A DNA stretch of 40,234 nt from IMG/VR virus record IMGVR_UViG_3300030380_000557, positions 1,612 through 41,845 of that record; one strand, given 5' to 3'. A program made the translations under genes and the position numbers. The notes beneath the pieces are model-generated. The model was given only the letters and a program-made list of their open reading frames with translations. It had not been told where the DNA came from and did no database searches. The DNA is from a virus. Each line of letters starts with the position of its first letter. Position 1 is the first letter of the stretch. This document shows, one piece after another, positions 2,374-34,292 of this stretch.

Positions 2374-2648
2374 TGGCTACCACTAAAAATGCACTGGCTA
2401 TGTGCGATGTATGTGGGTTTGTATATCCACATCGTATAATGCAAATGAACAGTTATGGGATGCTGGTATGCCCAGAAGACTTTGAAGGACAGTTTGATCT
2501 GAAGAACCATCCTCAAAATCATGTGCCTGATGTAAGAGATAATCCAGCTATTCTTAATCCTCGTCCTGATACAGGCGGACGTAATCTTGAATGGAGTCAG
2601 GCCAGCACAGCTTGGGGATCAACAGAGAAGTATTGGAATCTAATATGA
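2373..2648 (+). CDS. Small zinc-binding-type protein
   Basis: The 91-residue protein has CDVCGFVYPHRIM near residue 11 followed by LVCPEDFEGQFDLKNHPQNH, giving a CxxC pair plus a third Cys and nearby His/Asp that could complete a zinc site. The form recurs beside the adaptor gene in related marine phages. The role is unknown, probably a minor virion or tail assembly factor. ATGA overlap with the following fibre gene. Confidence 0.75.
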   Translation: MATTKNALAMCDVCGFVYPHRIMQMNSYGMLVCPEDFEGQFDLKNHPQNHVPDVRDNPAILNPRPDTGGRNLEWSQASTAWGSTEKYWNLI

Positions 2649-5161
2649 GCGATTTAACAAGTCAACTAATATCAAATACATATAAGCAGATTATACTTGT
2701 TAGTTCTTCAACTAGCAATACTGGTGTAGACACTTCCCTGAAAGCAGTCCAGACAGGTGATGGTGTTAACACTGCCCTGAAGGTAGCTACCAATGCAGTA
2801 CAGATTACTGGTGCATTAGGAGTAGATGGGTCAGTCTCTCTGGATGGAAACTTACATGTAGATGATAAAGTATGTGCCAGCAGTTTCTACGGAGACGGTT
2901 CAAACCTGTCTGGTGTGACTGCAACGATTGCTGGTAACATATCAGTAAGTAATGCCACGGTAGGTGGTACTCTTTATGTTGGCGGCACGGCTACTCTGGC
3001 TGGCGCTACACATCTGCAAAGCACTGTATCAGTTGGTGGGGCTGCACAGTTTGGCTCTACGGTAACTGTATCAGGCGCTGCACAACTACAAAGCACAGTT
3101 ACGGCTGTGGGGGCTGCAACATTTAAATCTACAGTTACAGTAGAGAATGCAGCAATACTTAAAAACAATGTTTCAGTTGGTGGTACGTTTGCAGTGGCTG
3201 GTGCAGCTACCTTCACCTCCAAAGCGGAGTTTGATAATGATGTATCAGTTAGTGGACGTTTGGATGTTGCTTCTTCTGTTTGTGTAGGAGGCATTGCAAA
3301 CTTTGCAAGTAATGTTTCTGTAAGCGGAAATTTAAATGTTGTTGGTAATGTAACTGCTGCTGAGTTTTATGGTGATGGTTCTAATCTTACAAATGTGGAA
3401 GCTGAACTTGGTATTGCCACAAACATTTCCGTATCAGGATTTATAAATGCTGGTGGTAATGTATCAGTAAGTGGTACTTTCAATGTTGTTGGTGCTGCTA
3501 CATTTAAAGATAATGTAAGTGTAAGCGGCAATACTAATCTTGGCGGCACAGTCACAGTAGGTGGTGCAGTAAGTTTGGCATCAACTCTTAGTGTAGGTGG
3601 CGCAGCTAACTTTGCAAGCACGGTTACAATAGCTGGTGCTAATGTTCAAGCAGCGAATGCAAGAGTATGTGCAAGTGCTTATTATGGAGATGGTTCTAAT
3701 CTTACAAATGTAGGTATTAGTGGAAATGTATCTGTTAATAATGCAACTATTGGCGGAAATTTATATGTAGGCGGAACAGTAACGGTAGCAGGGGCTGCAA
3801 TATTTGAAGATAGTGTATCCGTATCAGGTAATGTGGACATAGCAGGTAACACCTCAGTAGGTGGAACTCTGATGACCACAGGAGCCGCCACATTTGATGA
3901 TGATGTATCTGTAAGTGGTAATACAAATCTTGGTGGTACAGTAACTGTAGGCGGGGCAGTTAGCCTTGCATCAACCCTCAGTGTGGGAGGTGCAGCAAAC
4001 TTTGCCTCTACAGTGACCATAGCAGGGGCTGTGAGCCTTAACTCTACTCTCTCGGTAGGTGGGGCTACCCATCTTGCCAGCACCGTCACAGTGGCCGGAA
4101 AAGCCATCTTTGAAGATAGTGTATCTGTAAGTGGTAATGTAGATATAGGAGGTAATGTTTCAGTAGGTGGAACGCTCTTTGCTGCTGGAGGAATTACTTA
4201 TGATGGAGATGTATCTGTTAGTGGTAACTTGGCCGTTGGCGGTAATACTTCTATTGGTGGTACGCTTAGTGTTACGGGTGCAGTATCTCTTGCATCTACT
4301 CTTAGTGTAGGAGGTGCAGCAAACTTTGGAAGTACTGTAACGGTAGCTGGTGCGGTATCGCTAGCATCAACTCTTTCAGTAGGGGGAGCAGCACACTTTG
4401 CAAGTACAGTTACAGTAGCTGGGGCAGCGATCTTTGAAGATGCAGTATCAGTATCAGGTGCAGTAGATATAGCTGGTAATACTTCTATTGGTGGTACACT
4501 TATAACCACAGGTAAAGCAGAGTTTGAAGATGATGTATCTGTTTCAGGTAACTCAAACTTTGGCGGAACAGTTACTGTTGGTGGAGCAGTATCACTAGCC
4601 TCTACACTATCAGTAGGTGGTGCAGTAAATCTTCTTAGCACTGTTACTGCTACGGGCAACTCAGGCTTCTTAGGAACTGTCAGGGTTAGTGGTGCAACCT
4701 CTCTGGAGGGTACTGTACATATTACAGGTACAGCTACAATTACAGGTAACTCTGGTTTCCTTGGTACTGTCAGAGTATCTGGTAATACTTCTCTGGAGGG
4801 ACAACTACAACTAAGCGAGTCTGCTGCGGCTGCTGTACATACCACTGCAATTAACGGTGTGACATCTGTATCCCTAAACTTTGGTATAGCACAGAACTTC
4901 TTTACTTCTGTTACTGCTGCACATACACTGGCACGACCTACCAATGCAAGAGTAGGACAGGTTGGTAGTATTCTGTTTATGCAGGATGGCGGCTCTGGTA
5001 CAGTTGCTTATAATGCCTGTTGGAACTTTATTGGCGGCACAGCCCCAACATTATCAACAGGCGATAATGCAATGGATAGATTAGATTATATAGTAGTTTC
5101 AGTTTCTTCTGACGATACTGCTGAAAATATTCAAGCAGTTATGACACAAGCTTATAGTTAG
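2645..5161 (+). CDS. Repeat-built tail fibre protein
   Basis: I use ATG 2645 (838 residues), which gives an ATGA overlap with the previous gene; an open stretch upstream lacks coding character. Residues about 70-720 consist of near-perfect 12-residue units (GGAVSLASTLSV, GGAANFASTVTV, AGKAIFEDSVSV), sometimes with 6-residue insertions, rich in Ser, Thr, Val and Gly. This 6-residue periodicity is typical of a beta-solenoid shaft. The motif YGDGSNL occurs three times and may mark segment boundaries. The last ~70 residues form a different cap domain (GQVGSILFMQDGG through RLDYIVVSV), also present at the end of the fibre at 8267-9214. Likely an elongated fibre shaft that reaches towards the host surface. 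Confidence 0.88.
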   Translation: MSDLTSQLISNTYKQIILVSSSTSNTGVDTSLKAVQTGDGVNTALKVATNAVQITGALGVDGSVSLDGNLHVDDKVCASSFYGDGSNLSGVTATIAGNISVSNATVGGTLYVGGTATLAGATHLQSTVSVGGAAQFGSTVTVSGAAQLQSTVTAVGAATFKSTVTVENAAILKNNVSVGGTFAVAGAATFTSKAEFDNDVSVSGRLDVASSVCVGGIANFASNVSVSGNLNVVGNVTAAEFYGDGSNLTNVEAELGIATNISVSGFINAGGNVSVSGTFNVVGAATFKDNVSVSGNTNLGGTVTVGGAVSLASTLSVGGAANFASTVTIAGANVQAANARVCASAYYGDGSNLTNVGISGNVSVNNATIGGNLYVGGTVTVAGAAIFEDSVSVSGNVDIAGNTSVGGTLMTTGAATFDDDVSVSGNTNLGGTVTVGGAVSLASTLSVGGAANFASTVTIAGAVSLNSTLSVGGATHLASTVTVAGKAIFEDSVSVSGNVDIGGNVSVGGTLFAAGGITYDGDVSVSGNLAVGGNTSIGGTLSVTGAVSLASTLSVGGAANFGSTVTVAGAVSLASTLSVGGAAHFASTVTVAGAAIFEDAVSVSGAVDIAGNTSIGGTLITTGKAEFEDDVSVSGNSNFGGTVTVGGAVSLASTLSVGGAVNLLSTVTATGNSGFLGTVRVSGATSLEGTVHITGTATITGNSGFLGTVRVSGNTSLEGQLQLSESAAAAVHTTAINGVTSVSLNFGIAQNFFTSVTAAHTLARPTNARVGQVGSILFMQDGGSGTVAYNACWNFIGGTAPTLSTGDNAMDRLDYIVVSVSSDDTAENIQAVMTQAYS
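3515..3640 (+). repeat. 42-residue fibre module, copy 1
   Basis: These 126 bases encode a module that starts VSVSGNTNLGG and ends FASTVTIAGA. An identical 42-residue protein segment is encoded at 3905-4030, but the two DNA copies differ at many synonymous positions. Further related copies lie between 4230 and 4640. Confidence 0.85.
3905..4030 (+). repeat. 42-residue fibre module, copy 2
   Basis: Encodes the same 42 residues as 3515-3640 with different codons for several Ser, Gly, Thr and Val residues. It is followed by more 12-residue shaft units. Confidence 0.85.
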
Positions 5162-5172
5162 GATTAATAAGA

Positions 5173-7479
5173 ATGGTATTTAGTAATAATCTTTTAATGG
5201 GTGCTGCTGGTCAAGCAACAGGATATGAGATTGATCAGAGCATTCGTTTTAACGACGACGATTCTGCCCATTTGTCTCGTACTTTAGGTACTGCAAGTAA
5301 TCGTAAAATTTGGACATATAGTCTTTGGATTAAAAGAGCTAATCTTGGTACAAGGCAAATGTTTTTTACCGTAGCTGCTGGAGGAGGCGCACAAGGTATC
5401 CTTGAGTTTGACCAAGGCGATGGCGGCAATGGGGGAATGGATAAGCTAGTTGTTAACAATGAAACTAGCGGAACAACTGCACTGAATTGGGAACTTGAAA
5501 TTGCGTTTCGTGACCCAGCAGCATGGTATAATTTTGTTTTTGTATACGACACCACGCAAAGCACTGCGAATGATCGTTTCAAATGTTTTGTGAATGGCGC
5601 ATTACAAACTGAGTGGGATAGAAATTCAACTCCCGGTCAAAATGAAGAACAAGCTTTTAATAATGCTTTAGACCATAGAATTGGTGAAGGCCATATAGCA
5701 AACTTTTACTTTGATGGTTACATGGCCGAAATACATTTCATTGATGGCACTGCAAAAGCTGCGTCTGATTTTGGTGAGTACAACGATGATGGCGTCTGGG
5801 TGCCGATTAAATATGAAGGGTCTTACGGAAACAATGGATTTTACCTAAAAGGGCAGGACAGTTCTGCACTTGGTGATGACACTTCAGGAAATGGGAATGA
5901 TTTTGCCAGCAGTGGCTTGGCAGCGGCGGATCAAAAATCTGATACGCCGACTACAAACGCATCAACCCTTAACCCACTGTGGGCCGGGGCAACATTGTCT
6001 GATGGCAACCTCGTAGCAACCGCAAGTGCTGATGCGTATCAGTGGGCTACATCAACATTTTCAATTGATGACGGTGGTAAATACGTTTGTGAATTTCAGA
6101 AAAGTGCCGGTACATTTGGCTATGTCGGTATCTTCCAACTTGGAAATCACAATGCAACCACCGGCAACAACTATATGTACGCCTATAATCTTGGAACAGG
6201 TGAAATTGTAAAAAATTCAAGTGTAGTAACTGATCTTGGAACTGGTGCGGCCAACAGCTTAATGCGTATTGAATATGATGGCAGTAATGACACTATTGAG
6301 ATATTTGATGATGGTACAGAAATCTTTCCAGCATCAACTGGTGTATCAAATACTGTTGGTTTGACAGGACAAAATTCTTTGCACTTTGGCTGTGCGCCTT
6401 ATGCGAGCGGCACAATTATCACAGCAACTTTCCAAGGTTTAAGCGGAACACCAACTACCAATTTTAAAGAGTTGACAAGTGCTAATCTTTCCACACCAAC
6501 AATCTCTGATGGATCAAAGTATTTTCAAACCACGCTGTATAACGGAACTGGCAGCGAGCTTGAAGTAAATCAATCTGGCAACTCAACTTTTGAACCAGAT
6601 TTTGTATGGATTAAAAATCGTAGTAATGCGGGCAACGAACATGATTTATATGATGCTGTTCGTGGTGCAACAAAAGCAATATTTTCTTCTGCGGCAAGTC
6701 CTGAAAGCACTCAGACACAAGGTCTAAAAAGTTTTGACAGCGATGGTTTTACTGTTGGCACCCGTGGTGAGGTAAACACAAGCGGATCAACTAATGTTGC
6801 TTGGCAGTGGAAAGAAGAAGCAACCCCCGGTTTTGATATTGTTACCTATACGGGTAACAAAACTAACCGCACAATTTCACATTCGTTAGGAGTTGCTCCA
6901 GAGTGGATTGTTATTAAAGACACTTCAAACACTGAGAGTTGGGTTGTTGGTCACAATTCGATTGGCTGGACAAAAAACCTTTTTCTTAATCTGACTAATG
7001 CCGAGGCAACCAGTTCATCAATCTGGCAAGACACTGCGCCAACAAGTTCTGTTTTCTCAATCGGAACAAGCGACGGTGTAAACAAAGTTGGAACGCATAT
7101 AGCGTATCTTTGGGCATCGGTTGCTGGATTTTCAAAGTTTGGTTCTTATACGGGCAATGGCTCCGCAGATGGGCCATTTATTTTTACCGGGATGGCACCT
7201 GCTTTCATTATAGTGAAACGTGCCGCTGGCGGAACAGGTAACTGGGACATGTTTGATAGGCAGCGTGATCCAATTAACCCCGCAGATGCAGTGCTAGATG
7301 CAGATTCCAACGGTGCTGAAGCAAGTTATTCAACCATTGATATCGATTTTTTAAGCAACGGATTTAAGGTTCGTGGAACGCAGTCCAATATCAATACAAG
7401 TGGTGACACATACATATACATGGCCTTCGCAGAGAATCCATTCGGCGGTGAAGACATTGTACCAGTGACAGCAAGATAG
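5173..7479 (+). CDS. LamG/SPRY-type tail protein, probable receptor-binding protein
   Basis: The 768-residue protein follows an AGGA site and reads as several beta-sandwich modules. Residues about 20-200 resemble a LamG/concanavalin-like lectin (IWTYSLWIKRA, WYNFVFVYD, FVNG, DGYMAEIHFIDG). About 285-430 resemble a SPRY-like domain (KYVCEFQKSAGTFGYVGIF). About 470-768 hold two copies of a DUF7483-like module (FVWIKNRSNAGNEHDLYDAVRG; ISHSLGVAPEWIVIKD, then MAPAFIIVKRA). Such modules are known for carbohydrate or surface binding in marine phages. Placement between two shaft-type fibres suggests the host-recognition element. It uses more CGT and AAC codons than the AGA-rich neighbours, which fits exchange by recombination. 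Confidence 0.8.
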   Translation: MVFSNNLLMGAAGQATGYEIDQSIRFNDDDSAHLSRTLGTASNRKIWTYSLWIKRANLGTRQMFFTVAAGGGAQGILEFDQGDGGNGGMDKLVVNNETSGTTALNWELEIAFRDPAAWYNFVFVYDTTQSTANDRFKCFVNGALQTEWDRNSTPGQNEEQAFNNALDHRIGEGHIANFYFDGYMAEIHFIDGTAKAASDFGEYNDDGVWVPIKYEGSYGNNGFYLKGQDSSALGDDTSGNGNDFASSGLAAADQKSDTPTTNASTLNPLWAGATLSDGNLVATASADAYQWATSTFSIDDGGKYVCEFQKSAGTFGYVGIFQLGNHNATTGNNYMYAYNLGTGEIVKNSSVVTDLGTGAANSLMRIEYDGSNDTIEIFDDGTEIFPASTGVSNTVGLTGQNSLHFGCAPYASGTIITATFQGLSGTPTTNFKELTSANLSTPTISDGSKYFQTTLYNGTGSELEVNQSGNSTFEPDFVWIKNRSNAGNEHDLYDAVRGATKAIFSSAASPESTQTQGLKSFDSDGFTVGTRGEVNTSGSTNVAWQWKEEATPGFDIVTYTGNKTNRTISHSLGVAPEWIVIKDTSNTESWVVGHNSIGWTKNLFLNLTNAEATSSSIWQDTAPTSSVFSIGTSDGVNKVGTHIAYLWASVAGFSKFGSYTGNGSADGPFIFTGMAPAFIIVKRAAGGTGNWDMFDRQRDPINPADAVLDADSNGAEASYSTIDIDFLSNGFKVRGTQSNINTSGDTYIYMAFAENPFGGEDIVPVTAR

Positions 7480-20393: not shown

Positions 20394-20567
20394 CTATTTC
20401 CTTGTACAGAAGGAATATATATTCATTGCCTTCTTTAGTTTAGAAATCTTCTGCAAAGTTGATGCCGCACTCTGGCACGTAACAGATGAATCAAAGTTCT
20501 GATAAGTTACATTGATGTCAGAGCCAGCCTTGGTCCACATCAGTGCTACAACAATTAGTACATACAT
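20394..20567 (-). CDS. Small exported Cys-containing peptide
   Basis: A 57-residue frame starts at ATG 20567 (TAATG overlap with the upstream methyltransferase) behind a strong AGGAGG site. The N-terminus MYVLIVVALMWTKAGS looks like a signal peptide or anchor. The mature part has two Cys residues, near 31 and 54 (VTCQSAAST, SFCTRK), which could form a disulfide. It resembles in layout the small protein at 8064-8267. Possible outer spanin-like or exported accessory; no lipobox is seen. Confidence 0.6.
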   Translation of the reverse strand: MYVLIVVALMWTKAGSDINVTYQNFDSSVTCQSAASTLQKISKLKKAMNIYSFCTRK

Positions 20568-21256
20568 TATTGTTCCTCCTCTTTCTTTAGTTTAACTACA
20601 CGGGGATACTGATCTATCCTGTAGCCTTCAGTGTAAAAAGTTTTAGTATCTTGATTCTCCATTGTATCAGCAAAGAGATAAATTTTTAGATGTTTAAACT
20701 TTCTACTTTTTTCTGCTAACATTTGTATCCAATCATTAGGAGAGAAGACAGAGATATGAGCATTCCTACCATCAGGTAACAGTTTCAATGCTTCAAAGCA
20801 AGCTACGTTTAGAAAGACTATCTTCTTTGCATAGGAAAATATTTCTTCTACTACCCAACCCAAGTCTTCTTCTGCAATATGTTCCAGAACATCAGTGCAT
20901 ATCACTGCATCCTTTCTGTGTATAGGAAGCTTACTGTGTTTCTCATAGCCGGGATCAAAGAGTTCGCACTCATCTAACTCCCAATACTCAGGAAGAGGAC
21001 AGTCAATTTCATTAGTGATCTCTGAGAACTTGTCTGTGTAGAGTACTGCCTTACCACAGCCATAGTCAAGCACAGACTTACAGTTATTGTTTTTCAGGTA
21101 TAGTTTTATAAGGTCCACAAACTTTAGAAGGCTGCGTCCATTGAACATACCCTCTCCCTGATCGTGTTTCTCCTCATACATCTTAACAAGATTACCATAA
21201 TCATCTGATGGATTATGTCTACTGTTAGTATTGTCTATATTAATATCAGACATCAT
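20567..21256 (-). CDS. Class I SAM-dependent methyltransferase
   Basis: The 229-residue protein has motif I at 62-69 (VLDYGCGK), a conserved acidic segment, and motif IV-like DAVICTDVLEHIAEED (116-130), typical of Methyltransf_11/23 small-molecule methyltransferases. It overlaps the upstream three-domain protein by 11 bases. Together with the neighbouring glycosyltransferases it probably methylates a sugar or other small acceptor rather than DNA; no DPPY/NPPY DNA-methylase motif is present. Confidence 0.85.
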   Translation of the reverse strand: MMSDINIDNTNSRHNPSDDYGNLVKMYEEKHDQGEGMFNGRSLLKFVDLIKLYLKNNNCKSVLDYGCGKAVLYTDKFSEITNEIDCPLPEYWELDECELFDPGYEKHSKLPIHRKDAVICTDVLEHIAEEDLGWVVEEIFSYAKKIVFLNVACFEALKLLPDGRNAHISVFSPNDWIQMLAEKSRKFKHLKIYLFADTMENQDTKTFYTEGYRIDQYPRVVKLKKEEEQ

Positions 21257-23600
21257 AGTATCCTTTAAACTGTGGGCGAACTTCCTGTTCTTCTTTAATC
21301 TTCCATAAGTCAGCTACCATTGTATTCTCTCCATGAAAAGACAGAACACCCTCAAGGCCGGGATCGTTAAAGACTTTCTCACAATCCTGTGCCATAGCTA
21401 GTAGCTCACCTGTAGTCCAGTAGGACTTGTCCTTGACATTAACCTGTATATACTTAGGCTTGGGAGTTTCACCACCCTCAAGATCACCTGTGGTTTCTGT
21501 CTTCTCCTCATCGGTAGGCTCATCTCTGCAACAGTCAAAGCCAAACAGATGTATATCTCTGAAGCCCATTGTGTGTAGCATGCCAATACCACGCATGGCA
21601 GCGCATGTACCTCCTGTGATAAGAGTAGCGCCCTGTGGTATGCCAAGCTCCTCACTTAACTTAACCTGTTGTTTCTCAATAACTTTCCCTTGCTCCTCCT
21701 CTTCACGAAGCGAGTCAGTGAAAGCGTGCCAGCCCCACATATGGGTATCCTTTTCTTTCAGATACTCTGTAACAGAAGGGTCTGTCATGGATGCAACAAA
21801 GAAGTTAATACTAGGATCAGTCTTTTCAAACAAATCTTTTCGTACAATATTATGTGTACTCTTACCTGTGATTGGTCTGGGATCAAGAACAATACAGCCC
21901 CACGGTATGATGCCGTTCTTCATCAGCCCCGGCAGAGCATGTTTAACTGACAGAACTTTACAGCCGGGATTATCATGTATAAACTTTTCTAACTTTGCAT
22001 AGTCTATGTAGGGACCAGCAGAAACAATAACAGCCTTGTCCTTATGTGCAGGATGCTTTGTAACCCACTTGTCTTTATCTATATGTGTAAGATTAGTTAC
22101 AATGTTATTGCGTATATACTCTTTTGGTACTGAATCTCTGGGATGAACAACAATAGGAACTTGTTTTAGTTCTGGTGGGATATCAGGAAGAGACTCATCC
22201 GTTAGAAATACTACAAGGTGTGTACGACCACCACCCAGAACCTTATCATCAGAGGGGAGTACATACTTTCTTACATTAGATTTCTCATCAAAGGTAGTCC
22301 AGCCGTCATCCGTAGTTTTTTCTTCGTGTAGCTTTTTAGTAGGGACAGAATCAAAGAGTACTTTCATTCCCTGATACTCATCATCAGGTGTCTTCTCATT
22401 GTCTTCCTTAGTAAAGAAGTGATCACCCATAACAACAGGGATAGTTTTAAGTACATCAAACTCATGCTTTACAGTTTTAATACTGTTACCACTTCCCATC
22501 AAAGCAAAGTCTACCTCATCCATATAGACAGGCTTTAGAGTATCTCTGACATTACCTTTGTATAACTCATAGGTAAACTCTTTACTCTTCTCTTTCTTCA
22601 TATGTTCGGCAAACTCGTCAAACCTTTTCTCAACAGCCTTCTTGGTATTGTGTGGCTTGGCGTTGAACTCTTCTTTATCGGTAGCTGTAGTAGCATCTTC
22701 AAACAGATCATAACCAATGTAATGAACGGCGTCTGAGTTGTCAAAAGCAGCAAGAGCCATCTCAAGCGCACGACCCCCATTCCATGTCCCCGTCTCTAAT
22801 ATAGTCTTTGGTTTATAGAAACGAATGGTATCAGCAAGCTGCTTGTACCTACCGGGAAGAATGTCAGGAGTTGTTTCATTATCTGATAGCTCAACAATCC
22901 TTTGACCATCGCTGTTACGAACATTGACAGAACTCTTATGGTTAATGTTTATTATAAGATTTTCCATACCAACAAACTCATGCACAGTCATGCCATGTGC
23001 TGTATAGATAGTGACAAGCCTACTAAGAATAAAAGCAGGGGTCCACTCACGATAATTGATATACTCTCCTGACATATAAGAGCCACGCCAATCACCCATA
23101 ATATCTACAGCAGTCTGCCGTCCAAGATTAAATGCCATGAGGTAAGATGTTTCAGGTGTGTAAATAAAATCAATGTTATAGGCAGGATCAGGAAAATAAT
23201 AATCAAGAGTGCTTGTTCGTATGTCTTTAACTGTGAGGCACATAGGATCAACCCAGAGTAGCCAGCATCCCTTGTTCTCAAAGCCACACTCAGTGATAGC
23301 AAATACTTCTGGTGCTGCTGACAGCCCATCAAGAAGCTCAGTATACTGTACTGCACCCTCTTCAGTACCGTCATGCTTCTGGTTTTCTTCTACAAATGTA
23401 GAGTACTCCGGTATGTTCTCAAGATTATGATATTTAATATTATCTGCTTGAGGCAGGGAATAGTTACTGATGTCTACATTATAATAGTAGCAGTGAAACT
23501 CAATGTCTGGTTGCCAGTTTTCTTTAAACTCATTAAGAAGTTTGAAGGCGTTTTTCTTTAACTTCTTTTCGTCAAAGCATGTAACAATTTTATATGTCAT
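21246..23600 (-). CDS. Three-domain glycan protein: GT-like, methyltransferase-like and DUF115 (MptE-like)
   Basis: The 784-residue protein appears to be a fusion. Residues about 1-225 look like a GT-A glycosyltransferase remnant (KIVTCFDEKKLKKNA, LLWVDPMCLTV at 114-124). About 250-465 fit a class I methyltransferase of the macrocin-O-methyltransferase kind (TILETGTWNGGRALE, 266-280), but the usual DG-x-HS loop reads ALMGSGNS (366-373), so the metal-binding residues are replaced. About 515-760 match DUF115/MptE-like proteins (AVIVSAGPYIDY, LDPRP, ITGGTCAAMRGIGMLHTMGF, HLFGFDCC), related to flagellin-glycosylating Maf proteins. It overlaps the glycosyltransferase gene upstream. A role in building or transferring a modified glycan is inference. 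Confidence 0.75.
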   Translation of the reverse strand: MTYKIVTCFDEKKLKKNAFKLLNEFKENWQPDIEFHCYYYNVDISNYSLPQADNIKYHNLENIPEYSTFVEENQKHDGTEEGAVQYTELLDGLSAAPEVFAITECGFENKGCWLLWVDPMCLTVKDIRTSTLDYYFPDPAYNIDFIYTPETSYLMAFNLGRQTAVDIMGDWRGSYMSGEYINYREWTPAFILSRLVTIYTAHGMTVHEFVGMENLIININHKSSVNVRNSDGQRIVELSDNETTPDILPGRYKQLADTIRFYKPKTILETGTWNGGRALEMALAAFDNSDAVHYIGYDLFEDATTATDKEEFNAKPHNTKKAVEKRFDEFAEHMKKEKSKEFTYELYKGNVRDTLKPVYMDEVDFALMGSGNSIKTVKHEFDVLKTIPVVMGDHFFTKEDNEKTPDDEYQGMKVLFDSVPTKKLHEEKTTDDGWTTFDEKSNVRKYVLPSDDKVLGGGRTHLVVFLTDESLPDIPPELKQVPIVVHPRDSVPKEYIRNNIVTNLTHIDKDKWVTKHPAHKDKAVIVSAGPYIDYAKLEKFIHDNPGCKVLSVKHALPGLMKNGIIPWGCIVLDPRPITGKSTHNIVRKDLFEKTDPSINFFVASMTDPSVTEYLKEKDTHMWGWHAFTDSLREEEEQGKVIEKQQVKLSEELGIPQGATLITGGTCAAMRGIGMLHTMGFRDIHLFGFDCCRDEPTDEEKTETTGDLEGGETPKPKYIQVNVKDKSYWTTGELLAMAQDCEKVFNDPGLEGVLSFHGENTMVADLWKIKEEQEVRPQFKGYYDV

Positions 23601-24360
23601 AGGGTTCGATTATTCCTTTTCCTGCAAGGTAAGTATAGTCTCCGTTCCATTCAGCAGCATATCTACCATCAATAGCTCTACCGCATTTCCATTCTTTAAA
23701 CCACGGCCCACCTGTTGTGAAGTGTACGTTCTTGGCTTCTATCTCTTCTGAGGAATGACCATCAAGCCAATTCCATTCCTGATGAATAGTTCCAATGTCA
23801 GCTTCTTTATCAGGCAACCATTCAAAGCCGTGTAGCCACCCACCTGTTTGCGTATTAACTTCTAATGGAGTTAATTTTTTATTAAGTGCGTGTCCACAGT
23901 TCCAAAGAATAAGACTTGACCAGTTCTTCCTGCGATAGTGTTCCTGCCTCTGGCCGTCCATCTTGAACTCTTCGGTAGGTTCATACTGATGCTTAACACA
24001 GTACAGTGGGTAGTAGTCCATGTTATATTCTTCAAACAACTCATTGATGTCAGTGCGAAGATACATGTCACAGTCCATGTACAATGCCCAACCCTGATAC
24101 ATGTTCAGGGCAGGTACAAGAAAACGTGTGAAGCTGAAATCCGTAGAGAATGGCTTACCATCTAGGTCATCTATCATCTGTCCATCTTTAACAGTATGCT
24201 TACGGTTAAACAAGCCCATACGCTCTACAATATCTTTGCGAATAGGTTTGACATCCACATTCTCAACTGCAATACGTTCAATGGTAAACTTTAAAACTTC
24301 ATAGGCCACATCTTCTCTTGGATCATAGCCTATGTAGACTGTGTTAGGTGCTTTTCTCAT
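23590..24360 (-). CDS. Glycosyltransferase (GT8-like)
   Basis: I choose ATG 24360, which follows an AGGAGA site; an upstream in-frame start at 24393 overlaps a hairpin. The 256-residue protein has VYIGYDPREDVAYEVLKF at the N-terminus, the metal-binding DxD as MDCDMYL (DCD at 96-98) and a C-terminal HFTTGGPWFKEWK resembling the conserved His-containing GT8 end. It would transfer a sugar from a nucleotide donor. It overlaps the three-domain glycan gene by 11 bases, so the two are probably made together. Confidence 0.8.
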   Translation of the reverse strand: MRKAPNTVYIGYDPREDVAYEVLKFTIERIAVENVDVKPIRKDIVERMGLFNRKHTVKDGQMIDDLDGKPFSTDFSFTRFLVPALNMYQGWALYMDCDMYLRTDINELFEEYNMDYYPLYCVKHQYEPTEEFKMDGQRQEHYRRKNWSSLILWNCGHALNKKLTPLEVNTQTGGWLHGFEWLPDKEADIGTIHQEWNWLDGHSSEEIEAKNVHFTTGGPWFKEWKCGRAIDGRYAAEWNGDYTYLAGKGIIEPYDI

Positions 24361-24414: not shown

Positions 24415-24855
24415 TTACAAGTTATAGATTTTTTCTTTCTTGTCTTCAGGTATTACCTGTTGAAGATCGATGGTAATCATACCGTCTCTGAAAGACACAT
24501 CATCTACAACTACGTCACTGGCAAGGTGGAAAGACTTTGAGAAAGGTCGCTTCGCTATGCCCTTCTGTGCGAACTTCTCATCGTCTTCTTCTTCTTTCTT
24601 TCTGCCAGATATGGTTAGTGTACCGTCTTCAGTTTTAATTTCCAACTCTTCTTTACTGAAGCCAGCAGCAGCTAACTCAACTACATATTTACCATTACCA
24701 TTCTTTATTAGATTGTGCGGTGGATAAGAACTAGCTGTACGGTTAGGCGTCTTCTCTACCATATTTATCATGTCTCTAAATAATCTATCATGTCCAATGG
24801 CCCATGTAGAAAACTTAGAAAAGAACGGATCGTTGCTTGAAATATACGCATTCAT
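24415..24855 (-). CDS. hsp20: Small heat shock protein, Hsp20/IbpA type
   Basis: The 146-residue chaperone carries the alpha-crystallin domain: HNLIKNGNGKYVVELAAAGF, KEELEIKTEDGTLTISGRKK, then FSKSFHLASDVVVDDVSFRD and GMITIDLQ, with the C-terminal VIPEDKK of bacterial IbpA forms. ATG 24855 follows AAGGAG. Hsp20 genes are common in T4-like cyanophages and other marine phages and are thought to aid virion protein folding. A consensus sigma-70 promoter lies 58 bases upstream, so this is the first gene of its own transcript. Confidence 0.93.
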   Translation of the reverse strand: MNAYISSNDPFFSKFSTWAIGHDRLFRDMINMVEKTPNRTASSYPPHNLIKNGNGKYVVELAAAGFSKEELEIKTEDGTLTISGRKKEEEDDEKFAQKGIAKRPFSKSFHLASDVVVDDVSFRDGMITIDLQQVIPEDKKEKIYNL

Positions 24856-24913: not shown

Positions 24914-24942
24914 ATTATACTACCTCTTATATGATTTGTCAA
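24914..24942 (-). promoter_or_regulatory. Consensus sigma-70 promoter for hsp20 and downstream genes
   Basis: Reading leftwards, TTGACA (24942-24937) and TATAAT (24919-24914) are both perfect consensus and separated by 17 bases. The start point would fall near 24907. It lies about ten bases beyond the CCA end of the tRNA gene and drives hsp20, the glycan genes and probably the lysis and terS genes. A perfect match implies strong use by the host RNA polymerase. Confidence 0.85.
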
Positions 24943-24951
24943 GGACTTTTT

Positions 24952-25028
24952 TGGCGCACTTGGCAGGACTTGAACCTGCAACCTACAGATTAGAAGTCTG
25001 TTGTTCTATCCAGTTGAACTACAAGTGC
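24952..25028 (-). tRNA. tRNA-Arg (UCU)
   Basis: A complete 77-base cloverleaf: acceptor GCACTTG/CAAGTGC, D arm GTTC/GAAC, anticodon stem ACAGA/TCTGT around loop CTTCTAA (anticodon TCT), T arm GCAGG-TTCAAGT-CCTGC, discriminator G and an encoded CCA. It decodes AGA, which is frequent in the rightward structural genes, so it may supplement host translation. Confidence 0.93.
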
Positions 25029-25035
25029 TAATCTA

Positions 25036-25206
25036 CTAACCATATGCATCAAAACTTTTACCTCTTTCTGCAATTTCTTTTATAGTCCTTTTGCAGACTG
25101 TGCAAAAAGTTTGTGTTGAATCAATCTTACAAATCTTCTGACACTTCCTGCTTTTCTCCTTTGACTCCTCAGTAGGAAACCAGTTACACTCCACATGATC
25201 CACCAT
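25036..25206 (-). CDS. Small four-Cys protein, DUF1289-like
   Basis: The core CQKICKIDSTQTFCTVCKRT followed by IKEIAERGK matches DUF1289 (C-x3-C-x8-C-x2-C-x-RT-x2-EI), a bacterial family of small presumed metal-binding proteins. The start is ambiguous: ATG 25206 (overlapping the ribonucleotide reductase by 23 bases), GTG 25221 or GTG 25191, the last with a GGTGGA site. Overlap with the reductase means co-translation and perhaps a linked role, for example as a metal or redox partner; that is inference. Confidence 0.7.
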   Translation of the reverse strand: MVDHVECNWFPTEESKEKSRKCQKICKIDSTQTFCTVCKRTIKEIAERGKSFDAYG

Positions 25207-26869
25207 GTCCAGTGATGTCACAGATGTCGTGCGTCTCTAGTCCTTCTTCAAACTCCTCACCAAGCTTTTCTACAGCTTCAGAATACGGCACCGAAGAAAG
25301 AGGTTGTCCTCCCCTACATCCGTCAGGGTACACCGTGAAACCTCGCAGCCTGTGAGCGTAAGAAGCAAGAGTATCAGTAAACTCAGTAACAGTATCTTCA
25401 TTGTTAAGCTTACTCCCCCACTTGGGCAGATTAATTGTGCTGCTGATAGACATATCAACATAGTCCTGTACATCTGCCTGAAACTTTATACGCCTCTTAT
25501 AGTCCTCTGCAAGATCAAGGGCTGACTCAATGCTTTTTGGATCAACACCATACAGATCAATGATCTCCTGTGCTGCACTGTCCACCACGTACTGATAGTG
25601 CCAACGATTGCCACCCTTCAGATACCTGCGCTTGTAAGCCACAGCAAAGATAGGCTCTACACCTGTGGATGTTCCTGCAAGAATACCTATTGATCCAGTT
25701 GGAGCAATGGCACGATTAGCGACAGGAGTAGAACAGCTAAGAGTATTACTAAAGTCGGTGCTAACGTGATCACTAACTCCCTTATATACCGATAACCACT
25801 TGTGAAGTCCTTCGGTAACTTCATACTTCTGTCCTCCCTTGATTAACCATTCATGCATACCCATCAGACCAAGACCAAGCCTACGGTTCTTCTCTCTGGT
25901 CTTGTATACCTTATCATAGGGTAGCTTTGCCCTGAGTGTTCCACATAGCAGAAACTTGGTAGCAAGCTCCACTACATCTGCGAACTCTTTCAGATCGTCA
26001 ATGCGCCCCATATTAACAGACCCAAGATTACAAACATCAGAATCATCTTCAGATGTAACCTCCGTGCAAGCATTACGTAACGTCTCCTTTTCCTTGTCGA
26101 AAAAATTAAACGAGAAGCCCGGTTCTGCACTTCTAAGAGCCTGACGTACATTAGTCCTAAAGACATCTCCTGTATCTCCTGTTTTCCAATAGTTAAGCAA
26201 CCATTCTGTATCGTAGTTCACGCTGATGTTTGTCATATCCAGCGGTGCCACAAAGTTAAAGTCTTGTTCTTTTACCTGACCAATGGAGAAACCTGTCTCA
26301 CCCACTGGCATATCATACCAGTTTTTACTGGCAAGAAACTTATCTACATCAGCATGTTTCCAGTTAAGACTGGCATAGATAGCAGACCTGCGACTGCCAC
26401 CCTGCATGACCCTTCGGCCAATCTCATTGATCATCTGCATCTTTGGTATAGGGCCAGAAGCAAGACCACCCGTACCATTGAGGATACGTCCTTCCTCACG
26501 GTATACAGAGTAGTCCACTCCAATACCACCGCCTGTCATAAGACAGGACTCAGACTTCCAAGAGATGTCAGCCCAATCTTCTCTACTATCCTCCTCTGCT
26601 TTGAGCAGGTAGCAGTTATTAAAAAACTTATTCTCACGCCCTGCATAATAAAGATATCGACCACCGGGAATAAACTTCAGGTCAGTGATCATACGTTTCA
26701 GTTCGTCTTTGTCATCCTTACTTAGATAGTCCTGACACACATCGTCTACCAGAGTAGATGACAGTGCATCCCATGTCTCGCACCCATGATGGGCGTACTT
26801 GTGTTTAAAGATGTCTTCGCTAAACTTGGAGCGAAACATCGGGTTCTCATTAGATCGAAATTGTGGCAT
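25184..26869 (-). CDS. nrdJ: Ribonucleotide reductase, probable class II (adenosylcobalamin-dependent)
   Basis: The 561-residue enzyme reduces ribonucleotides to deoxyribonucleotides for phage DNA. Visible landmarks: NNC (C86), the radical-site NACTE (N266-E270) and partner Cys in DVCNLGSVN (C280), and the phosphate loop RAIAPTGSIGILAGTSTGVE. The C-terminus ends DICDITGHGGSCGV, supplying the reductant-side Cys pair. No small subunit (NrdB) gene is in the window, which favours the B12-dependent monomeric type known from roseophages. It is shorter than cellular NrdJ. ATG follows AAGGGGAA; its end overlaps the DUF1289-like gene. Confidence 0.85.
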   Translation of the reverse strand: MPQFRSNENPMFRSKFSEDIFKHKYAHHGCETWDALSSTLVDDVCQDYLSKDDKDELKRMITDLKFIPGGRYLYYAGRENKFFNNCYLLKAEEDSREDWADISWKSESCLMTGGGIGVDYSVYREEGRILNGTGGLASGPIPKMQMINEIGRRVMQGGSRRSAIYASLNWKHADVDKFLASKNWYDMPVGETGFSIGQVKEQDFNFVAPLDMTNISVNYDTEWLLNYWKTGDTGDVFRTNVRQALRSAEPGFSFNFFDKEKETLRNACTEVTSEDDSDVCNLGSVNMGRIDDLKEFADVVELATKFLLCGTLRAKLPYDKVYKTREKNRRLGLGLMGMHEWLIKGGQKYEVTEGLHKWLSVYKGVSDHVSTDFSNTLSCSTPVANRAIAPTGSIGILAGTSTGVEPIFAVAYKRRYLKGGNRWHYQYVVDSAAQEIIDLYGVDPKSIESALDLAEDYKRRIKFQADVQDYVDMSISSTINLPKWGSKLNNEDTVTEFTDTLASYAHRLRGFTVYPDGCRGGQPLSSVPYSEAVEKLGEEFEEGLETHDICDITGHGGSCGV

Positions 26870-33302: not shown

Positions 33303-33461
33303 CTATCCTTTCTTGATTTCATAAACTCTTTCTGAAGATTGCTTGGTAAGATGTTGAGTGAGTTGTTCTCTATTTCGGAGTTCTTCTTCCGCCTCCTTCT
33401 TAGTATCGAAAGATTTAATTTCCACATCACCCCATTCCTTATTTAATATCAACTTCCACAT
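33303..33461 (-). CDS. 52-residue small protein
   Basis: ATG 33461 overlaps the end of thyX and the frame ends at TAG 33303. The product MWKLILNKEWGDVEIKSFDT continues into a charged helix (KKEAEEELRNREQ) and resembles many small phage proteins that begin with a beta hairpin and a Lys/Glu helix. It lies in a different frame from a longer chance reading frame at 33110-33430. The next ATG is five bases after its stop. Confidence 0.6.
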   Translation of the reverse strand: MWKLILNKEWGDVEIKSFDTKKEAEEELRNREQLTQHLTKQSSERVYEIKKG

Positions 33462-34117
33462 AGCGCACCCCACGATTCAGGAAATAACTTTTCCATATGT
33501 TCTCCAATTAGTTTTACTACATCATGAGTTTCAACCTGTGCATCCTTACTACATCGTAGCTTATACACCCGTCCAAATGCCATAAGTGTACCAGACCAGT
33601 ACCACTCTGTCAATAGACTTTGTGGTAGTATTGCTCTGGCCTGTTCTGCACATACACCTGAATCAATCATAGCTTTGTAAGAATCTTCGCAGTGACGTTG
33701 TGCATCTTGAAACATATGGTTTACCACACTTGGTGAGGCAACCGACTGCCTCGATGACCCCTGCTTTACGTTCTCAGCACTCTGTCTCCAGTAGTCAGGG
33801 GACCAGAACTCTGGATCAGTTTTGATATACCTTCGGCTCACCTCATTCCAGACCAGACCAACCTGATGCTTCATAAGCTGGCGTGCTACAAAGATAGGTG
33901 CCTTGATCCTAAACTGTGCAGAGCCATGACCAAATGGGGTCCAGTGATTATGCTTGGCAAGATACTTTATTAGTTTAATATCTTTATCTTGAAGCACTCC
34001 CTCAGTGGGTCCACCAAAAGGTATTACTTCCCAAGATGATTCTTTATCAAAGCTTACCCGTGCTGCATTTACAACACTGAGATCACTGCCCATATGATCA
34101 ATCAATTCAACAGTCAT
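33449..34117 (-). CDS. thyX: Flavin-dependent thymidylate synthase
   Basis: The enzyme makes dTMP from dUMP with FAD and NADPH. I choose ATG 34117 (222 residues) with a GGAAG site; a start at 34147 is also in frame. The signature region reads ARQLMKHQVGLVWNEVSRRY (78-97), where the classical RHR-x-x-S part is replaced by Q-x-x-KHQVGL but NE-x-S-R-RY is kept; LAKHNHWTPFGH (53-64) precedes it. HT-type host-independent thymidylate supply fits the nearby reductase. It overlaps neighbours on both sides. Confidence 0.92.
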   Translation of the reverse strand: MTVELIDHMGSDLSVVNAARVSFDKESSWEVIPFGGPTEGVLQDKDIKLIKYLAKHNHWTPFGHGSAQFRIKAPIFVARQLMKHQVGLVWNEVSRRYIKTDPEFWSPDYWRQSAENVKQGSSRQSVASPSVVNHMFQDAQRHCEDSYKAMIDSGVCAEQARAILPQSLLTEWYWSGTLMAFGRVYKLRCSKDAQVETHDVVKLIGEHMEKLFPESWGALCGS

Positions 34118-34292
34118 CGAATGTATCTTCCCACAGTTCATGTACAAAAGAAACTTTGTCTTCCATAATATTATCTGCTTCTTTTTTTGCTAATTTCCTA
34201 GCTTCTTTGTAGGCATATCCATCATCAACATACTCCCTGATAAGGTCACGCATTAAACCGCTGCGTTCTTTCTGCCATAAATTTTTAGCCAT
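34107..34292 (-). CDS. Small protein, unknown function
   Basis: A 61-residue, highly charged helical protein (KNLWQKERSGLMRDLIREYV, then ARKLAKKEADNIMED). ATG 34292 lies one base after the previous stop. It overlaps thyX by 11 bases. Nothing recognised. Confidence 0.6.
   Translation of the reverse strand: MAKNLWQKERSGLMRDLIREYVDDGYAYKEARKLAKKEADNIMEDKVSFVHELWEDTFDDC

Follow-up and report, generated by a model that had tools for sequence, protein, structure and literature searches.

The window analysed here, a stretch of 40,234 nucleotides from a 41.8-kb virus contig (IMG/VR record IMGVR_UViG_3300030380_000557), carries virion, ribonucleotide reductase, thyX and helicase genes of a podovirus-like phage type. 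Its DNA polymerase is nearest to those of pelagiphages HTVC103P, 104P and 115P (46%). On the minus strand lie three genes, for a GT8-like glycosyltransferase, a long fusion protein and a separate methyltransferase, which overlap as a preliminary description had stated, by 11 nt at each of the two junctions (Table 1). AGGAGAT precedes the ATG of the GT8-like gene at 24360. The three-gene module is flanked by hsp20 on one side and by a 57-aa ORF, a GTA-type holin gene and terS on the other. Its neighborhood in the window genome consists of replication genes and holin/terS, not capsid or tail genes. Elsewhere in the window, an 856-aa tail-fibre-like protein is encoded at 2591-5161, and its repeated stretches match cyanophage YadA-type and structural proteins. 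At the ribonucleotide reductase slot (25184-26869), other clades (L096, L141, L147, L221 and L251) carry a reductase only about 22-25% identical.

Table 1. Features of the glycan module and of its promoter in the window.
Feature	Positions	Strand	Remarks
Separate class I methyltransferase gene	20567-21256	minus	229 aa; subfamily other than that of the M domain
Fusion gene, GT-A-like + methyltransferase-like + DUF115/Maf-like	21246-23600	minus	784 aa
C domain, aa 485-784	21249-22148	minus	MptE-like/DUF115, Maf fold
M domain, aa 246-455	22236-22865	minus	Methyltransf_24/TylF-like
Switched loop GSGNS for DGGHS, aa 369-373	22482-22496	minus	M domain
SAM-binding motif I LETGTWNGGRA, aa 268-278	22767-22799	minus	kept
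N domain, aa 1-240	22881-23600	minus	GT-A-like fold
D-P-M in place of D-x-D, codons 118-120	23241-23249	minus	N domain
GT8-like glycosyltransferase gene	23590-24360	minus	256 aa; DxD and HxxxGGPW intact
hsp20 gene	24415-24855	minus	first gene past the shared promoter
TTGACA-17-TATAAT promoter	24914-24942	minus	upstream of hsp20, conserved in near relatives

The promoter is the sole site with 12 of 12 consensus bases in an 8-kb scan. Among the near relatives listed, both hexamers match exactly and keep their distance from the hsp20 start (-87/-88), with a divergent spacer between them, and a looser form lies upstream of 59 of all 101 hsp20 genes compared. The promoter is very likely real and common to hsp20 and the glycan module. 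The set had been credited with a strong promoter of its own; a conserved consensus promoter is indeed present, but it sits upstream of hsp20 and belongs to that gene, so the set shares it. A tRNA-Arg(TCT) gene (24952-25028) ends about 10 bases before this promoter.

The GT8-like protein scores below the Pfam cut-off for GT8 (PF01501; 16.9 bits vs 24.3, E 0.0049). It has both the DxD and the C-terminal HxxxGGPW-type motif, and D96, D98, H213, G217 and P219 are invariant in 13 GT8-like sequences down to 35% identity. The separate methyltransferase scores 23.8 bits with Methyltransf_23 (cut-off 27, E 4e-5) and matches the methyltransferase family phrog_24759 (E 1e-18), and its profile matches the structures of CFA synthase, Hen1 and UbiG. 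No membrane segment was found in either protein or in the fusion.

The preliminary description saw three joined regions in the fusion, and structure prediction supports three folds. AlphaFold2 with 17 close relatives gave a pLDDT of 38.6, and an alignment of 76 diverse sequences (A4) was used instead, which gave a mean pLDDT of 87.1 and a pTM of 0.58. The predicted domains are thus good models, while their mutual arrangement is uncertain. In Foldseek, the best PDB match of the model is Maf (5mu5, E 1.4e-7, probability 1.00). It also matches class I O-methyltransferases (TomG 5n5d, E 7.9e-6; 3duw; COMT) and GT-A enzymes (GT6 alpha-1,3-galactosyltransferase, GT8 glycogenin and LARGE1, E 1e-5 to 4e-5), the latter being taken, from the length of the matches, to fall on the N domain. 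Profile matches of A4 to alpha-actinin in the PDB were set aside as chance hits, because their E values are marginal (0.004 at best) and the predicted folds are unrelated to alpha-actinin. The fusion also passes the cut-off for MptE-like/DUF115 (PF01973; E=1.1e-16, 61.5 bits vs 34.6, aa 499-692), as do all nine other fusions scanned, and the proposed relation to DUF115 and Maf is borne out.

The catalytic motifs of the other two domains are altered in the window. The N domain has D-P-M where GT-A enzymes have DxD. The M domain lacks the canonical DGxHS loop and DDY, and has GSGNS and GDHF; the reading ALMGSGNS of this loop was correct, and all 17 of the nearest sequences have GSGNS unchanged. 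The M domain matches Methyltransf_24 below the cut-off (E=0.003, 18.8 bits vs 26.3), whereas relatives with an intact loop pass it (E to 6e-12) and one of them also passes that of TylF, a sugar O-methyltransferase family. There is no profile-level similarity between the N domain and the GT8-like gene, or between the M domain and the separate methyltransferase, which is of a different subfamily; therefore neither pair arose by recent duplication.

The fusion has 35 near relatives in IMG/VR, and many more were found through the motifs ETGTWNGGRA, LFGFDCCRD and TGELLAMAQDCE. After dropping copies identical in the last 300 residues, 179 distinct copies remain, all in uncultured viral contigs. Median dN/dS among near relatives is 0.056 for N, 0.068 for M and 0.086 for C; by this measure all three domains are under purifying selection. 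Such ratios, in a protein found in 179 distinct viral sequences, argue that the fusion is not a chance product. The invariance of the SAM motif is partly built in because the ETGTWNGGRA pattern selects for it, but the motif is also kept in the sets that do not (IMG/VR relatives, LFGFDCCRD and TGELLAMAQDCE), with G275 changed to A or S in three sequences and with L251/L254 as exceptions. The domain order is N-M-C in every complete ORF with a C domain, except for L221 (N-C) and two with an in-frame stop. These two, L066 and L071, seem to be split fusions; a single stop (TGA and TAA, respectively) interrupts each of them close to the M-C boundary, not at the same position, and both stops are probably errors. 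An apparent N-C-M order in four copies came from a mis-sorted weak match, and the C region follows M in them. The N domain occurs alone in pelagiphage Mosig, where a GT8 homologue is its neighbor, and in podovirus ct7QV12, with the large terminase gene nearby.

A search of cultured phages with the whole fusion protein gave no match, and a first scan of host genomes found no fusion. In a second host-genome scan, contig L208 turned up in a Sneathiella MAG. It shows full phage synteny and is probably a co-binned phage of the same group rather than a host gene, giving a weak hint of the host. The carriers are widespread, uncultured, mostly marine podovirus-like bacterial viruses, in many of which the module occupies a fixed position. 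The GT8-like gene is directly upstream of the fusion in 154 of 154 copies whose upstream flank spans 900 bp or more, and the DUF115 signature is well kept; thus these two form the constant core of the module. In L251, a thyX gene (5775-6413 of that contig) lies between the GT8-like gene and the fusion as a mobile gene inside the module; the thyX of the window is at 33452-34147.

The methyltransferase loop divides the 179 copies. DGGHS...DDY is intact in 66 and GxGNS...DH is found in 110. Among 55 aligned sequences, 20 have DxD, DGGHS and DDY, 10 have DxD with GxGNS or GxGDS, and 25 have GxGNS and no DxD; DGGHS without DxD does not occur, and DxD is present in 30 altogether. In a larger set that was not deduplicated, D369 and H372 are each found in 98/98 of the intact group, and the switched group has G369 in 190/190, N372 in 184/190, D393 in 190/190 and H394 in 158/190. 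D298 is kept in the switched group, as is SAM motif I. On unrooted trees built without the motif columns, the loop switch is a single branch (SH-aLRT 100) and DxD changes three times, always inside the switched clade. As read from these trees, DxD loss is later than the loop switch and confined to that clade. We take DGGHS as ancestral, though the trees are unrooted, because matches to outside methyltransferase families come from the intact copies and hardly at all from the switched ones. With its DxD lost, the GT-A part of the window fusion may be non-catalytic too.

The state of the loop goes together with the separate methyltransferase gene. Among contigs that extend 800 bp or more downstream, after deduplication and with ORFs that start inside the fusion counted, this gene follows the fusion in 78 of 78 switched-loop contigs and in none of 48 intact-loop contigs, where terS or a holin gene is usually next. 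Anywhere in the stretches examined, a relative of it occurs with only one of the 66 intact copies (L094, about 4 kb upstream). This main association is one change on the tree, and a Fisher test on the counts would overstate it because the switched clade is one event. Two further cases appear on the tree. In L251/L254 the fused M domain is degenerate (GGFDE) and the downstream methyltransferase gene is absent; a stand-alone M paralogue with DGGHS/DDY, above the Methyltransf_24 cut-off, is present. In L221 the fusion has no M domain, and a 230-aa gene with a weak methyltransferase match (E 0.015) comes directly after. On the N+C tree, the switched clade, L251/L254 and L221 are three separate changes, with the starred branches forcing fewer. 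L251/L254 and L221 are apparently further independent degenerations, their placement being uncertain with long branches and a quick tree search. The argument for loss and gain is that the two coincide, that there are no exceptions, and that these two cases add to it.

The fused M domain had been suggested to be a binding scaffold while the separate methyltransferase supplies activity. The comparative counts strongly support the view that the M domain no longer acts in the canonical manner and that the separate enzyme is the active one, but a scaffold is not the only reading of the domain, because the replacement residues are nearly invariant. GxGNS...DH could instead be a retooled active site, metal-independent or using another metal or substrate, with the separate methyltransferase adding a different methylation. 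Conservation of the replacement residues equals that of the canonical ones, SAM motif I and D298 persist, and within the switched clade the M domain (60% mean identity) is better kept than the N domain (46%). A separate enzyme of another subfamily, without profile-level similarity to M, also fits this reading. However, replacement is the simpler explanation for a gene that every switched contig and no intact contig carries, and for the further methyltransferase genes that accompany other fusions whose M domain has decayed or is absent. We consider a retooled site unlikely, though worth keeping in mind.

The reading that we prefer, and hold to be on balance probable, is that the module assembles glycans in the cytoplasm and that the separate methyltransferase took over from the fused M domain. 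The module would be transcribed together with hsp20 from the conserved sigma-70-type promoter. Its working transferases would be the GT8-like enzyme, which would use a nucleotide sugar as donor, and the Maf-like (DUF115) part of the fusion, which would attach a sugar to a protein or glycan, probably from a CMP-sugar as in Maf and Cst-II. In the ancestral fusion, both the GT-A domain, with DxD, and the O-methyltransferase domain, of the metal type with DGGHS/DDY, may have been active. The window lineage would then have acquired, in the interval that separates the fusion from the holin/terminase genes, a gene for an unrelated class I methyltransferase. The gained enzyme would have taken over methylation, its arrival probably preceding or accompanying the loss, in which the fused M domain lost two canonical acidic residues and a histidine. 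The M domain may have been kept as a SAM-binding or docking part, and the fused GT-A domain would have lost DxD later, in sublineages.

The module thus likely serves the cytoplasmic assembly of a methylated glycan, and its target is most plausibly a virion protein, which would be glycosylated before assembly. We favor this target, with the host surface as the main rival, because of the Maf enzymes, the contexts of GT8-like genes in other phages and the sugar-supply genes. In other phages, GT8-like and methyltransferase genes lie near head/structural, tail or lysis genes, and some of these phages also have GT29-like, GT9-like or sialyltransferase-annotated genes. In a cyanophage, the neighbors of a GT8 homologue are kdsA/kdsB, and GDP-mannose 4,6-dehydratase genes occur in seven loci of the intact type (L059, L060, L072, L077, L097, L101 and L122). 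This dehydratase was seen near the module only with intact-loop fusions, downstream of terS in the loci examined, and some contigs related to its carriers also have a cupin resembling a sugar isomerase.

Pathways for surface polysaccharides, too, typically include glycosyltransferases and GDP-mannose dehydratase, and the module is not beside capsid genes in the window genome. It could therefore alter host LPS or capsule, blocking superinfection or masking receptors, and leave virions unmodified. Maf enzymes, however, act on cytoplasmic protein subunits (PMC11339370, PMC4065374). Furthermore, the three proteins lack membrane segments, neither a flippase nor a lipid-carrier enzyme was seen near the module, and its location next to holin and terS points to late expression, at a stage where excluding other phages would bring little benefit. 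We regard a role at the host surface as improbable, but as the most serious competitor for the target. Glycosylated and otherwise modified DNA occurs in some phages, and the window genome has thyX and ribonucleotide reductase genes, but modification of phage DNA bases by the module is very improbable, as no base hydroxymethylase was seen among the annotated genes and the enzymes to which the fusion is related, Maf and TylF, have proteins or sugars as substrates.

A broader account can be offered only tentatively, as possible but short of probable: in one phage lineage a trifunctional glycan enzyme passed methylation to a gained enzyme, its M domain remained as a conserved SAM-binding regulator or a retooled site, its GT site was lost afterwards, and what is left is a Maf-type protein glycosylation machine acting on the virions of abundant marine phages. 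The copies form a natural series from intact, to loop switched, to DxD lost, to a domain decayed or deleted, in which the loss of a catalytic site inside the fusion is paired with a separate enzyme encoded elsewhere in the contig. This opens two questions to experiment: do marine phages decorate their own virions with sugars and methyl groups, and by what route do pseudoenzyme domains originate and why are they retained?

Maf enzymes O-glycosylate flagellin from CMP-nonulosonic acids, resemble Cst-II, and consist of a degenerate Rossmann-like N domain, DUF115 and a helical C domain (PMC11339370). The C domain of the fusion is Maf-like by both PF01973 and its best PDB match, and the nearest known activity is cytoplasmic protein glycosylation (PMC11339370). 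Unlike in Maf proper, DUF115 ends the fusion, GT-A-like and methyltransferase-like domains stand in front of it, and there is no flagellin substrate. Compared with TylF and Methyltransf_24, intact relatives pass the cut-offs and the window M domain matches weakly in the same region, below the cut-off, with GSGNS...DH in place of DGGHS...DDY. Our literature search for DUF115 or MptE-like proteins in phages gave nothing on point. We know of no DUF115 or methyltransferase fusion in the virion glycosylation of mycobacteriophages, which have other hosts. Their phage-encoded glycosyltransferases are suggested to modify capsid protein (compare PMC11256854), a likeness to our preferred target. Pelagibacter phage Mosig EXVC030M (MT647606, about 127141-130666) has its stand-alone N-domain homologue (hmmsearch 8.6e-22) directly beside the GT8 homologue and an FkbM methyltransferase; these are separate genes, no DUF115 fusion was seen there, and its genome of 141 kb is much larger. 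UniProt A0A6J7X5Q0, a 714-aa protein of an uncultured phage annotated as 'Methyltransferase domain containing protein' and without a described function, matches the fusion structurally along nearly its whole length (E 9.6e-55, with 25% identity across 810 columns) and apparently has the same architecture, which is therefore already in the databases, unnamed. What is new, at the level of sequence comparison, is the series of intact and switched loops and its coupling to the separate methyltransferase.
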